Assembly: GCA_947561715.1 (NCBI GenBank) | Contig: OX387204.1 | Location: forward strand, 253,001-317,000 | DNA from: Ascidia mentula | Lineage: Eukaryota > Chordata > Ascidiacea > Phlebobranchia > Ascidiidae | Direction: 5' to 3' | DNA: 64,000 bases | Shown: piece by piece, positions 1,282 to 33,711 of the stretch | How positions within the stretch are numbered: the stretch's first letter is position 1 | How the letters are laid out: every line of letters begins with the position of its first letter | The notes under the pieces: generated by a model | Told to the model about the DNA's origin: nothing | Database searches by the model: none | The model's input: the letters and a program-made list of their open reading frames with translations, nothing else | Program-made: the position numbers and the translations under genes

Positions 1282-3315
1282 TTAGATGCTTTCAGTATCA
1301 CTAAATTCCAAAATATCTGCTTCGGCCTGGGCTGTTTGTTCGTGTAACAATGTTAATCCAGTCAGATCTTCTAAATAACTGTGAGGAGAGTTAAATACGT
1401 CTAGTAAAAAATTCATCTTATTTGATCGAAAACTTTCCAATACAAAATCAGAACATGCTGTGCATTTACTGAAAGCTTGGGTTGTTGGGTAAAGGACTTG
1501 GTTGTTTGACAAAAACCCACGGATTTGGTGTGGAACTGGTCCCAGCAAGGACAACTCTGTTTGGTCATTTCTTTCATTCCCACTATCGGGCATGCACAAC
1601 TTCCCAGATGGATGTTGGAGAATGGAAGATAAAAGCTCGACTGCCAATGCTGAAGCAATCATGGAGACACCAGGTCTTGACACCGTGCATTGTTGATCAA
1701 GACTTCTATCTCGAAGTGAATTACCGGGGGCAACGACATCATTACAAAAATAACAACCTAATTTTTGTGGTGAAGACTGTAATTTTTGTTCATTAATTAC
1801 ACCATGTCTCATCACTAAGTATGAGTCAAAACCAAGAGCTGCATTGATGACAAGTTTGTTTTTGGCAGCACATATCACTGACGGCAACCATCTGCTTTCC
1901 CGTGTGTCCATCAGCAAAAATACAACATCATGTTGATCGATCAACAAATTCAGTTGCTCAACTTCGCGGTTAACTTTCTCAACAAGTTCATCACTGCCAT
2001 GTACAGGGTGACCAGGCATTGGAATTGAAAGTTCCAAACCGGTTGCATTCACACCTGGAAAAATCTTTTTTAACTTTTCAGCAGCAGCGATAGCTTTGGG
2101 CCTTCCACCTGATGGGCTGCAATCTGTAAACTCGAACAGGGACTGCCTGACCGGATTTGAAAATGAAACTTTCCCGTTGTCAACCATTGTGATGTCAGTA
2201 ACCCCCCAGCCAAGCAAACCACGAGCAACGTTGCAACCGAGTGTTCCTGAGCCGAGAAGTAAACATTTACACAAGGAAATCCTTTCCAAATCAAGGGAGG
2301 GCATCAACCTCCATCTCATCAGTTTAAGATTCAAGTCTACTGAGGAGGTTGCAAGTCGAACGGGATCCATACTTTCGGCAAGATTCACTGATCGGGGGGA
2401 CAATTTGTTTTTCCTATTTTTCTCCCAACCTGTTGCATCAGGGCAGTTTTCAATAGGTGGCAGCATTACTTCAAGGTAGAGACTATGAGATATTGACCGT
2501 TTTCCTGCATGAGTTCGATCCCGATAACAAATAACTCTTACGAGATTATCCTCGAATAAATTGCACCAATGATACGATACCAAGGTCAAAAGGTTACGGA
2601 GGGGCCAACCAGGATATTCCTCCATAGTTGACGGGTCTGAAAACCCAATCATGATGAACTTATCCTGCTTTGACAAGCTCTCAAACTCAACCAGGCTGTG
2701 AACTTCAACTCGCATGTCTGAATTTTTCAATTTAATATCGGAGGAGGATGAAACAACAAAGAATGATGGATTCTTTGGACCAAGGGCATCCATTGCTTTT
2801 ATCATCTCACTTTGAAAATTTGAACATTCTAAGCTTGATAAAGGTTTGCAGAATTTTTTTTGAATTGGAATGGAATGAACGAATGCTGGAAATGCAAACC
2901 AATAATAAAACACATATTTCTTTAAATCAGCAAAACTGAGAAGAACAAAATGGCTGAGCAGTGATGGGTTTTTTATCGCCTCACCAGACTTTATTGCTTG
3001 CCAAACTTTTTCAGCTTCATTATTCAGCAGCAGTTTTTTGTCGCAAGTTTTGAAATCCTCAATGGTATTCTTGTTGTGCAAAGTCCCATGACTGATAAAA
3101 CACAAGGGGGGAGGTTTCTTTGCTCTCTCGAATGCCCTGTAATCCAAATTGTGTCTGCACGGCAAACCTTCCATGTCTGTGTTTGTGTAAAACCCATGGA
3201 TTTCTCTGGGAGAGTCATCCAGTTTAAACACATTTAGTTTATTTTCTGCAAGTTTGTTCCAAAATCCTGACTCAATTGCACTGGCAAATGACAAAAATTG
3301 AGCCGGGCTTGCCAT
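1282..3315 (-). CDS. ATG7: ATG7, E1-like ubiquitin-fold activating enzyme of autophagy (single exon)
   Basis: A full-length 677-residue ATG7 in one uninterrupted reading frame. ATG7 adenylates ATG12 and ATG8/LC3 and passes them to ATG10 and ATG3 in the cytosol. The N-terminal E2-binding domain occupies roughly residues 1-300. The ATP-binding glycine loop GSGTLG is at 355-360, in LLLGSGTLGCNVARGLLGWG. Zinc cysteine pairs are visible at CYFC (521/524) and CTAC (618/621). The catalytic cysteine is C543 in DQQCTVSRPG. The acidic C-terminal tail EFSDTESI matches the family. The length is close to human ATG7 (about 700). The absence of introns is odd, because most genes in this window are split and the vertebrate gene has many exons. 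It is divergent from ZMAT2 with a 472-bp gap. Confidence 0.97.
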   Translation of the reverse strand: MASPAQFLSFASAIESGFWNKLAENKLNVFKLDDSPREIHGFYTNTDMEGLPCRHNLDYRAFERAKKPPPLCFISHGTLHNKNTIEDFKTCDKKLLLNNEAEKVWQAIKSGEAIKNPSLLSHFVLLSFADLKKYVFYYWFAFPAFVHSIPIQKKFCKPLSSLECSNFQSEMIKAMDALGPKNPSFFVVSSSSDIKLKNSDMRVEVHSLVEFESLSKQDKFIMIGFSDPSTMEEYPGWPLRNLLTLVSYHWCNLFEDNLVRVICYRDRTHAGKRSISHSLYLEVMLPPIENCPDATGWEKNRKNKLSPRSVNLAESMDPVRLATSSVDLNLKLMRWRLMPSLDLERISLCKCLLLGSGTLGCNVARGLLGWGVTDITMVDNGKVSFSNPVRQSLFEFTDCSPSGGRPKAIAAAEKLKKIFPGVNATGLELSIPMPGHPVHGSDELVEKVNREVEQLNLLIDQHDVVFLLMDTRESRWLPSVICAAKNKLVINAALGFDSYLVMRHGVINEQKLQSSPQKLGCYFCNDVVAPGNSLRDRSLDQQCTVSRPGVSMIASALAVELLSSILQHPSGKLCMPDSGNERNDQTELSLLGPVPHQIRGFLSNNQVLYPTTQAFSKCTACSDFVLESFRSNKMNFLLDVFNSPHSYLEDLTGLTLLHEQTAQAEADILEFSDTESI

Positions 3316-3787
3316 TACCTCTTGCTCAAGATTTTTGATATATTACACATTTATATTGGCTAGCACCTTGCTTACCTGCACATGACACCATACAAAAAGA
3401 TTAAAACTGTACAAAAACAACTCAGGCCCAAACCAATTGATATTTTATTTTAGCTTACCTTAATGTAACAGCAATACTTCTTAGCTAAACATTCTTGACA
3501 CATAAATATATATTTACAGACACCCTCGCGTCACACTTTACACTGCATCTCCCAAAAATATTGAAAATACATTTACCGAACGAGCTTACGTGGAAGTTTC
3601 AACCAACATGGAATAATACCGTATCTACCCTGTAAATTTCATAGGCATGTTTGTCACGGTTGAATGATTTCTCTACTATTCCATATTTCCATTGTTGTTT
3701 TGTTGGAAAAGTGCAAGCGAACATCCAGAAGTGTTACGTGAATTCCCACTGTCAACTACAGACAAGAGGAGAGCAAATATCACAAGA
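3316..3787. promoter_or_regulatory. Divergent promoter region ATG7/ZMAT2
   Basis: A 472-bp stretch between two start codons pointing away from each other, so it must hold both promoters and 5' UTRs. No TATA box or recognisable site was identified with confidence. It is presumed bidirectional from geometry only. Confidence 0.5.
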
Positions 3788-5846
3788 ATGTCGTCCTCTA
3801 CGGTGAGTTTGGCTTTTGTAACTTTTTAACTTGATCTAATGTAAAATCCAATTCAACAAATCTAAACCATGATGGTGTTGGCAACTTTGTAACAATCGTT
3901 AATACTACAATTCGTTGCATGACCACAGCGATGCTGGCTGATAAATAAAGAATTTGTCACCCTCCTGTTATGTCAACATTGCATTCATTACATGATTTTA
4001 TTTTGTTTGTTCTGCAGAAGAACCATCTAACATGATACACTTGTTTTTAATACACACTAAGAAATAGTTTTGTTTCATGCAATAAATTGTATAAAATCAA
4101 TGATTTACTTGTGTTAAATTTATATTTTGCATCTATAGGATCCTGGTGACCACAGAAGAAAGTGGGACAAAGAGGAATACGAAAAGCTCGCCTTGGAAAG
4201 ATTGAATGACGAATATGACATTTTAGAGAAAGATGATAGTAAGACCATGTTTGTGCTTACTTTAAATGTCAGATATTAATTTTTACCAGGAAATTCTGCA
4301 TGCCTTCTTCCTTGGAAAATTATTGTTATTTAAGTAATCAAAGTTTATGCTGAAGTGCCGCACATGCAATCTGTGTCTTAATAAACAACATTTTTATAAT
4401 AGAGGATAGCGAAAAACCACCAGTCAAGCGTGAACTTTTGAAAGCACGAAAATACAGAATTGATTTGGATTCAAACCTGGGCAAGTCGGTGGTGGTCAGT
4501 AAAACCACACCAGCTGCTGAAAGTGGAGGATATTATTGCAATGCTTGTGACTGCGTCGTAAAAGATTCCATAAACTTTCTTGACCATATCAATGGAAAAA
4601 AACGTAAGTTTGCACTTGTAAAAGAGTGATGTGTCCATTAAAGATTTTTTTCTGATTGTTTACTGGAGTTGTGTGGTTTGATTGGAAAAGTATCTTCGAT
4701 CTTCGAGGGTATTTATGTTAAAAAACTTTACTTTCATTAAATCCTATGTAAATACGAGATTTTTAGCTGTTGACCAAGTATATGTATTAGATCAACGTAA
4801 TCTTGGAATGTCGATGAAAGTTGAAAGGTCAAGTTTGGACCAAGTTCAGAAACGATTTGAGATGAACAAAAAGAAACGGGAAGAGAAAAAGAAGCAGTAC
4901 GACTTCGATGAAAGAATGAAAGAACTTAAAGAAGACGTAAGGGTTGACAAAATATTGTTGATAATACCCTAATTTTTGTGATAATTTGGATGTTTTAACA
5001 GTACTGTTGCTGTGACCAAATAACTTTGAACATGTAAACCACGCAACATTGTGTACTGGGCTAGGTTTTTTATTTCAATAAATAAATTCTGACAAATGTC
5101 CGAAATGGCAGTAAAAATTTCGGATTTTTCGACATTTACCACGTATATTTAGCATTCAAAACAAGTAGCGTATTGCAGTAATTTGCGCGATGTAACAGCC
5201 AACTTACGTTCGCAAAGTACACGACTTTTAAGTTGCGTATCTGCCCGTGCGTTTGTCCAAGTTTAACAAAAACGCAGGAACAAACCGTATTGTTACGAAA
5301 CGATGCGACTGTATGCTAGCGAGTATTACGCGACAATGCACATCCCGTTGCTTATCAACTGATATCGAGGCCTCAAAAACAAACGCCACGAATCGCGATA
5401 ATGGCGTCCTAAGCATTGCAAGGCAAACTTGCGCGACGCACAATAGGACGCACTTTGCGCTCGCTGTTATTTCTTTTGCCGAAATGCATTCGTCCATTAT
5501 GTCCGAAATGGCTTAAATTTTTACTGTCAATTCGTAAAAAAATCCTCAATGACGACAAATAACACAAAAAAACATGTTAAAAAACCCAGGTAGTGGGAGC
5601 ACATGTTAAGCTATAACAACTCCGGTGTGAGCTCTTATCAATATATCAGAATAACCGTGTAATTAGGGGAGAATGTTTTGTACAATTGTGATATCATGTT
5701 ATTGACAGGAGGAAAGGTTGAAAGCTCACCGACGAGAGAAACGAAAAGAAAGAAAACGGAAAGCGGAAGAAGGAGATTCTGGAGACACTGAGATCGCTGC
5801 ACTCATGGGATTTGGAGGCTTTGGGACTTCATCGAAAAAAAGATGA
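3788..5846 (+). CDS. ZMAT2: ZMAT2 (Snu23-like), spliceosomal matrin-type zinc finger protein
   Basis: Five exons: 3788-3802, 4139-4238, 4403-4603, 4791-4936 and 5709-5846, all GT-AG and in phase. The product has the ZMAT2 layout: [13 protein letters not shown] near the N-terminus, a VKRELLKAR segment, then the U1/matrin zinc finger [25 protein letters not shown] split across exons 3 and 4, QRNLGMSM, a lysine/glutamate-rich helix and a [12 protein letters not shown] tail. ZMAT2/Snu23 belongs to the spliceosomal B complex and acts in the nucleus when the catalytic core is activated. The first coding exon is only five codons. Intron 4 carries an unusual CpG-containing insert flanked by short repeats (5096-5526). 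Confidence 0.95.
5096..5526. repeat. Possible small transposon-derived insert in ZMAT2 intron 4
   Basis: The 14-bp word ATGTCCGAAATGGC occurs in the same orientation at 5096-5109 and 5499-5512. Beside it, CAGTAAAAATTT at 5109-5120 is repeated as its exact inverse complement at 5515-5526. The enclosed 390 bp are richer in CG dinucleotides than the surrounding intron. The inverted ends suggest a MITE, but no target-site duplication is visible, so assignment to a transposon class is not possible. Confidence 0.4.
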
Positions 5847-31170: not shown

Positions 31171-33375
31171 ATGTTTTTCGTTTTGACTTTACTCTTTGTA
31201 TCTGCGGCATCGGGTAAGATGGTTGTACGAAGATTTTATTGTTTAGATGCAAAAACTTAGTTTATTAATTTAGACAATAAAGCTAAAGCTAATATGCTGC
31301 TATACATTATGTGCAAATGTTTCGAACACGACTGCGTCCATCATCAGTGCAACTTGAGTATGAGCTGCAACCAAGAGAGCGCTGAGGCAGGCAGACAACT
31401 GAACGCTCGAAACGTTTGCACATGATGCATAACAGAATATTAGCTTTGGTTTTCTTGTTTCAAATTTGTTATTTGTCTGCAAAGAAATCACCGAATATAT
31501 TGTTGTGATTACTTAAAGGAATCAATGAATAAACGTGAGGAAATCACCTACACATGGGCGCCTGACTTGATAACCTTAATGGTTTTTCAATGCCCACGCC
31601 ATTTTATTTGCATATTTGTTGTGAGTCGAAGTATTTGTGCAATTTGATCTTTTGTCGCTACGATCATTTTAAATAGTTAAGTTGCTTGGCATAGCGTGTG
31701 ATGCAACTTGTCAGTACTTCAAGTGATTTGCGATGATTCAAAATATTTTGTGCAGCGTCGGATTTGGCGTGCACCATGCAAGGAGGCACGTGCGTAGATT
31801 GGAGATATTACAAATGTTCGGCGGGAGTTGAGACTGGACTCTGCGACGGAGACACAAACAGAAGATGTTGCCTCCAATGTGATTCACAATGTACGGCACG
31901 ATCCACAAAAGAAAACTGAACTATTGAATATCGTGATTTGAAACCGAGAAGTCTTACGTCTTCTGCCTTGATGCAAATTAAACTTGCATATGATTTCCAG
32001 GTGTTTCGAACGAGAACAACTGGGCGTCTTGTTGTGATTCGTCTTGTACCAGTGCTGGGGGTGTTTGCCAGGACAACACAAACTACTGCACCGGATCATA
32101 CTCCTCTGGATCGTGTGGTGGGTCGTCCGACAGGCAATGCTGCAAATCTGGAGGCGGAAGTAATGGTGGTAAGTTTACGAATAACTTGGCTCCTTTAAAC
32201 TCTCTTCCTGTCGTCCTTGGTTGCTTTGCTGCAAAAATTTTATTCCATGTATTTCGCTTGGAAGTTTTTAAAATTGTTGGTCAACTTTTTAGGTTGTACC
32301 TTGGTGGAATATTCCACAATTTACATCATCGGGTACAACGGTCTGACTGTGGAAGTTGAACCTGGGTTTGAATCTTACATGGATAGCATGAACACGTATG
32401 CGAGGCAATGTGACGTCACAGTGAGTGTTGGTCTCTGATACCGAAATAAGTTCGTTGCCTTAATTTTGGATGTTATTATTAGTTACGTCAGGAAGATGAA
32501 GTTTTATGGAGGCGTTCAGCAATAATTTGTTTTTCACACTGGTTCATTAAAACTGCTATAACTGACAATCTGTATTTGATGGAAAAGAACCTTGACATTT
32601 AAAAACTAATCACGCAAAAGCACAAAAAGAAATAATTTATAATTTCCAACAATTAATTATAGAAAATCAGGGCAACGTTAGAAACGAGCACGATATGACC
32701 TTCCTGTTAATAACTACGCATAGTGTGACCACCCTGCCAATAACTGTACCATATGCCAGGTCTACGTAACCCACGCGTACAGATATGAAGGACAGGATCT
32801 CGGTGGTACTGTAGTGCCTCCAGCGACCACATCCAACCATCTTGTCGGGCACGCGATCGACATGAACCTAGATACACCAAACGGATGGTGCAACGGTGAT
32901 TGTATGGATGGTAAGTCTTCTTGTGCAGGAAATAGTGGTTGTACTTTCACCGCGTTTTTGGCACAACTCGGTTAATCTGGATCCGGTTTGTCTGAAAGTT
33001 CGCGTAATTCGTACGAAGCTGGAGGAACAAATGATTTGAAATCTCGGATAATCGCCTAATTCGGATAAATTGGATACGGATTAACAGAGTTTTACCTAAT
33101 CACATGTTATGACGTAATACCAATTCCTGGTAGTATTTTGGAAGAAACTGGTTTATGGATTGAAACGTCTAATAATTAAACCCGTTTGTCCCGCAGCTGG
33201 TTCTAACTCCTATTCCAACTGCTTCATTAATAAAGTGAAGGCAGGTGGTATGAGATGGGGGGGGGATTGGAGTTCATCCGATCCAGTCCACATTGATGAT
33301 GGCCTCAACGTGTACGACTACAACCAGTGGGAAAACCTCTACTACCAGTTGCAGGGGTCATGTGACAGGTCTTAA
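31171..33375 (+). CDS. Secreted cysteine-rich protein with M15 (VanY/DD-carboxypeptidase-like) metallopeptidase domain
   Basis: Six exons: 31171-31213, 31756-31890, 32001-32168, 32293-32420, 32760-32910 and 33197-33375, in phase, 267 residues. A signal peptide (MFFVLTLLFVSAASA) leads into two cysteine-rich modules: one with GGTCVDWRYYKC and NRRCCLQC, the other with GGVCQDNTNYC and DRQCC. The peptidase domain follows. It has the M15 zinc motif SxHxxGxAxD as SNHLVGHAID (H185, D192), an upstream Arg (AYRYEG, R166) and a downstream WGGDWSSSDPVHIDD, whose H240 is the expected third ligand. M15 enzymes cut D-Ala-D-Ala or L-Ala-D-Glu bonds of bacterial peptidoglycan, so a secreted antibacterial or digestive role is inferred. 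The catalytic set looks complete. A run of nine G (33257-33265) sits in the coding sequence. Confidence 0.85.
31274..31455. repeat. Imperfect inverted repeat (MITE-like) in intron 1 of the M15 gene
   Basis: The left arm (about 31274-31330), with AAGCTAATATG and ATGTGCAAATGTTTCGA, is inverted in the right arm (about 31400-31455), with TCGAAACGTTTGCACAT and AATATTAGCTTT. The arms are roughly 55 bp at about 80 percent identity, and the loop is about 70 bp. Confidence 0.6.
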
Positions 33376-33711
33376 TACTTGTTACGTAACAATCGCTGCC
33401 ATGGAAAAATAAAAGTAACAGCAAATCATGTGTGTGTGTGCTGCCTCTAGTGGTGTTAGTGATCCAAACGCTAACGCACGGGAAACTTCTTCGGATTCAA
33501 CCAATCACAACACAACACGTCAGAATCGTGTAATGTTTGAAAACAGTTAACGAACCGAATCATGCACCAACCAATCAGGGGGGTTGATTACTTTAGGCGA
33601 AGATACATACTGAAACTGTATACAAGAAAATAAAATGCAAACTTGATTCTAAAACGTGTCATTGCATTGTTACGTAATAAGTTAAACTCCTTGGAGCAAT
33701 ATATCGTGACG
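33376..33711. other. Convergent 3' region M15 gene/SUPT20H
   Basis: 336 bp holding both 3' UTRs. The SUPT20H stop codon lies inside a TGACGTCA palindrome (33707-33714). Nothing else is recognised. Confidence 0.5.
33408..33413 (+). other. Polyadenylation signal of the M15 gene
   Basis: AATAAA 33 bases after the stop codon, the usual distance for a compact tunicate 3' UTR. Confidence 0.6.

Follow-up and report, generated by a model that had tools for sequence, protein, structure and literature searches.

A rusticalin-like gene of a tunicate joins an M15 peptidase domain of probable bacterial origin to a cysteine-rich repeat cassette

The window analyzed here, 64,000 nucleotides (nt) of an Ascidia mentula contig (GenBank OX387204.1, positions 253,001 to 317,000), contains at 31171-33375 of its forward strand a gene predicted to encode a secreted protein of the rusticalin-like kind, in which two cysteine-rich repeats (CRRs) precede a domain of the M15 type. 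The reading that we favor, at a probability of roughly three in four, is that this tunicate protein is a zinc peptidase acting on bacterial peptidoglycan, that its M15 domain comes from a bacterial subfamily by horizontal transfer, and that the CRRs were joined to it by exon shuffling. An earlier annotation of the same DNA (the original prediction) had proposed a bacterial-type cell wall peptidase, possibly gained by horizontal transfer, fused to animal cysteine modules. Horizontal gain and fusion are both supported, but the modules are not specifically animal, since 301 of the 382 proteins reported to contain CRRs are fungal and 69 are metazoan (PMC7379824).

The architecture is already published, and the gene adds one more tunicate to the rusticalin-like family, whose members were described from tunicates, amphioxus, coral, and Trichoplax as secreted proteins that combine two CRRs with a domain of the M15 type (Daugavet 2019, PMC6339383). 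What is new is a corrected origin for the M15 domain and a CRR cassette shared with a goose-type lysozyme; the origin put forward in PMC6339383, from Listeria phage A500 via tRNA attachment sites, is not borne out by the tree. In the literature searched, a search that was not exhaustive, no description was met of either the bacterial subfamily, recognizable by its VHIDD motif, or the shared cassette.

Gene structure and encoded protein

The six spliced exons of the original prediction proved exact to the base. All five introns are of the GT-AG type, and the exons join in frame to 804 nt, encoding 267 amino acids (aa) and a stop codon. The features are as follows.

31171..31213, + strand: exon 1, start codon and signal peptide, with intron 1 in phase 1 (splice check, hydropathy)
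31756..31890, + strand: exon 2, CRR1, a phase 1-1 exon (splice check)
32001..32168, + strand: exon 3, CRR2 and a Gly/Ser linker, a phase 1-1 exon (splice check)
32293..32420, + strand: exon 4, start of the M15 domain (splice check, aligned to bacterial relatives)
32760..32910, + strand: exon 5, M15 part with R166, S183, H185, and D192 (splice check, Pfam, alignment)
33197..33375, + strand: exon 6, M15 part with D237 and H240 (RWGGDW..DPVHIDDGLN) and the stop codon (splice check, Pfam, alignment)
33408..33413, + strand: AATAAA, a possible polyadenylation signal (read in the sequence)

As had been proposed, the N terminus looks like a signal peptide, judged by hydropathy only (start Met, then hydrophobic residues at aa 2-12; mean Kyte-Doolittle value, 2.6), and the 267-aa product is probably secreted. 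The two predicted cysteine modules, each with GG-x-C and CC elements, are encoded one per exon, with phase-1 introns on both sides of each. Two introns lie within the M15 coding part: intron 4 follows aa 158, and intron 5 interrupts codon 209. In alignment A4, the spliced protein pairs with bacterial relatives through both of these introns, and because the relatives are intronless, the splice model is backed independently of transcripts. The protein is acidic, with an isoelectric point (pI) of 4.26 and 29 acidic and 12 basic residues, as computed after the removal of 15 residues.

The five consensus introns, the chromosome-scale contig, the animal neighbors, and the bacterial alignment that runs through two splice junctions leave next to no probability that the gene is a bacterial contaminant or a set of exons put together by chance, and nothing was found in favor of either. 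Contamination was ruled out on these grounds, in agreement with the original prediction.

M15 domain and active site

The sole Pfam family detected in the protein is PF13539 (Peptidase_M15_4); the match covers aa 181-242 and scores 49 bits, above the curated cut-off of 25, bearing out the predicted domain. The metal site residues named beforehand occupy their expected places, and their numbering fits the gene model: the alignment places the zinc ligands H185, D192, and H240, the upstream R166, the base D237, and S183. The residues of the S-x-H-x6-D and D-x2-H motifs (S183, H185, D192, D237, and H240) are invariant in alignments A1 and A4, and R166 is invariant in A4 only. Judged by alignment, the M15 domain carries the complete set of metal and catalytic residues.

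Endolysin families in PHROGs match the animal protein (best E value, 6e-08), as is expected because one superfamily is shared. An NCBIfam search with the animal protein gave no match. A search of this genome's contigs (196 Mb in 79 contigs) with the PF13539 family returned nothing at an E value of 0.001, a negative that is probably explained by the division of the domain among several exons. A structure model of the bacterial relative L035 has the M15/Hedgehog fold.

By structure comparison, the Hedgehog signaling domain has the same fold as M15, and Styela rusticalin is reported to be truncated, with the C-terminal 40 residues and some of the active site missing (PMC6339383). Both observations would suit a non-enzymatic protein, Hedgehog-like or regulatory, that has retained the fold. 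Such a protein is quite unlikely here, where every metal and catalytic position inspected is retained; a Hedgehog-like signaling role was dropped because the catalytic site is intact.

A bacterial subfamily close to the animal domain

A plasmid search gave one weak match, a tape-measure protein. Genome contigs were scanned with alignment A3, whose two rows are the animal M15 domain and a plasmid tape-measure protein; 125 stretches matched, 19 of which were confirmed. When scored against the animal domain on a common scale, 18 of the 19 confirmed loci (L035-L052) reach 67 to 115 bits, the best of them with 42% identity. The other 30 rows, comprising L053, 18 viral contigs (among the matches listed, at least 18), and 11 phage or plasmid proteins, score 32 to 44 bits on the same scale, with A500 at 36.6. 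The 18 loci, mostly metagenome-assembled, are distributed over Chloroflexi, Bacteroidota, Gammaproteobacteria, Synechococcus, and Myxococcota, together with one Parcubacterium and one unnamed bacterium. The motifs VGHAIDMN and VHIDD are common to the animal and bacterial rows of A4, and A500 is without both.

At the Synechococcus locus (L039:387-2981), adjoining genes encode peptidoglycan hydrolases of the Amidase_2, M15, and SLT types, each with PG_binding_1. An N-terminal LQRTAGNTAV stretch in the Chloroflexi protein at L035:505-1392, the closest of the bacterial relatives, is reminiscent of proteins of extracellular contractile injection systems.

Phylogenetic placement and the phage alternatives

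The full tree contained 39 rows: the animal domain, 17 of the 18 bacteria, the viral contig locus L072, L053, 11 phage or plasmid rows, and 8 of the 18 viral contigs; L042 was omitted, its scores being the same as those of L041. A branch with support of 98/99 sets the animal domain, the bacteria, and L072 on one side, within which the animal row is placed at 81/74, so that no particular sister is fixed. The same split is recovered at 100/96 in a trimmed tree of 33 rows, for which six long-branched rows (one of them bacterial, L036) were removed and columns were chosen more strictly. On these sequences, the animal M15 domain groups with a mainly bacterial VGHAIDMN/VHIDD subfamily. The direction of transfer is read from the wide bacterial spread of the subfamily and the patchy published distribution in animals. 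A phylogeny with bacterial, phage, and animal homologs had been suggested along with the original prediction; in the trees made here, animals are represented by one row.

That Listeria phage A500, or a phage closely related to it, delivered the M15 domain by way of tRNA attachment sites, as in the published account, is highly improbable. The closest solved structure is indeed the A500 endolysin Ply500, and tRNA-Arg genes with an attP-like sequence are reported from introns of one Ciona intestinalis gene (PMC6339383). But in approximately unbiased (AU) tests, A500 is rejected as the sister of the animal M15 domain in both the full tree (P = 0.00011) and the trimmed tree (P = 6e-06), and wider groupings are also low (animal with A500, A118, and Goe8, P = 0.026 in the full tree; animal with A500 and Goe8, P = 0.0145 in the trimmed tree), whereas a grouping with L035 stays acceptable in the full tree (P = 0.33). 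On the common scale, A500 falls far below the 115 bits of the best bacterium. When 50,697 phage records were searched by tblastn with the M15 part, 154 matched at E values of up to 10; among the best 60 of these, which were listed, the highest score is 40 bits (Gordonia phages), and A500 has 35.

ARAGORN found no tRNA in the 64-kb window, also with introns allowed, and a positive control on a mitochondrial stretch likewise yielded none; the result shows only that the published tRNA/attP feature is not general. By intron length, the tRNA-bearing Ciona gene probably belongs to the other rusticalin-like class, the second intron of the acidic Ciona gene being listed at just 168 bp in the table of PMC6339383. 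A term search of the main text of that paper for the word stem "phylogen" returned no occurrence.

The VHIDD subfamily does occur in at least one phage, and a different phage carrying it might have been the vector or donor. The viral contig L072 has a VHIDD member at 2740-3879, flanked by a terminase gene (108 bits) on one side and, on the other, by a gene that weakly matches a portal family (20 bits). The C-terminal part of this M15 protein matches an endolysin family. In a scan of 10 flanking frames, two gammaproteobacterial VHIDD members were each found to be preceded by a gene whose GTA-holin match, at 17.2 and 20.8 bits, stays under the cut-off of 24.8. Such a vector is nevertheless unlikely: among 2.9 million viral contigs scanned with exact subfamily patterns, 33 stretches matched and one relative, L072, was confirmed, and the closest bacterial relative had one match in the 50,697 phage records, an endolysin with an E value of 0.9. 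A viral scan with the animal protein as the single query found no relative. The grouping of the animal domain with L072 has P values of 0.044 in the full tree and 0.124 in the trimmed tree, which amounts to no firm rejection.

A repeat cassette shared with goose-type lysozyme

Searching the genome with the gene returned at least 17 matches, 5 in the gene itself and 12 elsewhere, and all 12 were to the repeat part; five of the stretches (L018-L022) were examined. The gene at L018:4481-6445 (contig C73, at about 9.20 Mb) encodes two N-terminal CRRs and then a domain with a lysozyme g match of 165 bits, for which Pfam gives sub-threshold SLT matches only. Between the M15 gene and this lysozyme gene, identity is 66% for CRR1 and 71% for CRR2, as opposed to 40% between CRR1 and CRR2 of the M15 gene. 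The first coding exon and the repeat part of the lysozyme gene also end in phase 1 (one acceptor was chosen by open frame). In sequence and exon phase, the two-CRR pair has the character of a single cassette that stands ahead of two different hydrolases. CRRs are reported often to precede wall-degrading domains, with PF13539 in six cases (PMC7379824).

The remaining stretches carry the repeats in other settings. L019:6113-8317 (- strand; contig C69) has three CRRs and, by eye, a tail like that of goose-type lysozyme; a Pfam search with this 56-aa tail gave no match. L020:3436-5975 (C73) has six matches to the cysteine repeat spacing, five of them similar to the repeats of the M15 gene, with a hydrophobic, membrane-anchor-like stretch after the repeats by eye. 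L021 and L022, about 34 kb apart on C73, are two very similar genes with two CRRs each; by eye, a trefoil-like cysteine stretch lies upstream in L021 and a membrane-anchor-like stretch downstream.

Genomic setting and host

The M15 gene sits on a 19.7-Mb contig, and six long open frames in the window match families that are usual in animals (ATG7, an adaptor medium subunit, Nramp, formin FH2, CHCH, and LRR). In the mitochondrial contig (L073 on C79, 19461 bases), the cox1 open frame holds 18 AGR codons, which fall, for example, in IMI-G-GF-G-NW, GAGT-G-W, and ILP-G-FG, positions that are presumably conserved glycines of animal cox1. The reading of AGR as glycine is described as a tunicate mark (PMC7047913), and by its mitochondrial code, the genome is that of a tunicate, in line with the filter feeder supposed in the original prediction.

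Proposed mechanism and its implications

Under the favored reading, H185, D192, and H240 of the secreted enzyme would hold zinc, which would activate water with D237 as the base, while R166 and S183 would hold the substrate. The enzyme would cleave a peptide bond in the bacterial peptidoglycan stem, most likely as an endopeptidase (for instance at L-Ala-D-Glu, as in Ply500), with carboxypeptidase activity possible. The CRR pair, shared with the goose-type lysozyme, would most likely be a stabilizing, targeting, or regulatory prodomain. In Trichoplax PLys, the CRR part is reported to stabilize the protein and to be removed by cleavage (PMC12855814), and by analogy the CRRs may act similarly here. 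The two enzymes could divide the labor, the lysozyme cutting the glycan and the M15 enzyme the peptide part of the wall. The M15 protein would have arisen by horizontal acquisition of its catalytic domain from the bacterial VHIDD subfamily, with the CRR cassette added through shuffling of exons at phase-1 introns.

Several points weigh against this reading. The trees contain a single animal row among bacterial, phage, plasmid, and viral sequences; program warnings point to long branches that meet in both trees and, for the first, to an atypical letter composition of the animal row. The patterns used to find the bacterial relatives drew in part on the animal protein, which biases the set toward near ones. 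The fold model is of L035 and not of the spliced animal protein, and the truncation in Styela suggests that the rusticalin-like family need not always be enzymatic. Enzyme activity, expression, and an immune or gut role are putative.

The more specific combination, in which a VGHAIDMN/VHIDD domain of bacterial and non-A500 descent was placed behind a two-CRR cassette that tunicates have used, via phase-1 introns, before two unrelated and complementary wall hydrolases, has about even odds in our judgment. If true, goose-type lysozyme and M15 peptidase would form a modular secreted kit for dismantling walls. Replacing A500 by a bacterial subfamily with peptidoglycan-binding partners would give the function a firmer footing and the origin a testable form, and the shared cassette suggests how animals may assemble secreted antibacterial enzymes from captured catalytic domains.

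Comparison with known systems

The nearest counterpart is C. intestinalis XP_002122335.1, reported as a 267-aa protein with a pI of 4.32 and 27 acidic (D and E) and 12 basic (R and K) residues (PMC6339383). Both proteins are acidic and of the same length, with a signal peptide, two CRRs, and a C-terminal M15 domain, and their genes each have five introns, two in the M15 part, five being the number reported for two Ciona rusticalin-like genes (PMC6339383). The intron lengths differ, and the likeness is judged from the published description; the present protein most likely belongs to the same acidic 267-aa class.

The bacterial VHIDD proteins, such as those of L035 (a Chloroflexi metagenome-assembled genome [MAG]; 45% identity), L037 (a Saprospiraceae MAG), and L039 (Synechococcus), show 30 to 45% identity in A4 (16 rows) and the same signature, and the CN-x2-C element of the animal domain recurs in L035 and L036. 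Unlike the animal gene, they have no introns and no CRRs, and 7 of the 9 scanned have PG_binding_1 or bacterial SH3 instead. Ply500, the L-alanyl-D-glutamate endolysin of phage A500 (PDB 2VO9), resembles the animal domain in the spacing of its zinc ligands and catalytic Asp and shares its fold with the modeled L035, but it is a phage protein without CRRs and without VHIDD, falls at 36.6 bits, and lies in a separate part of the tree. Trichoplax PLys, as described, likewise has N-terminal CRRs ahead of a bacterial-type wall hydrolase, which in that case is a goose-type lysozyme of family GH23 rather than an M15 peptidase.
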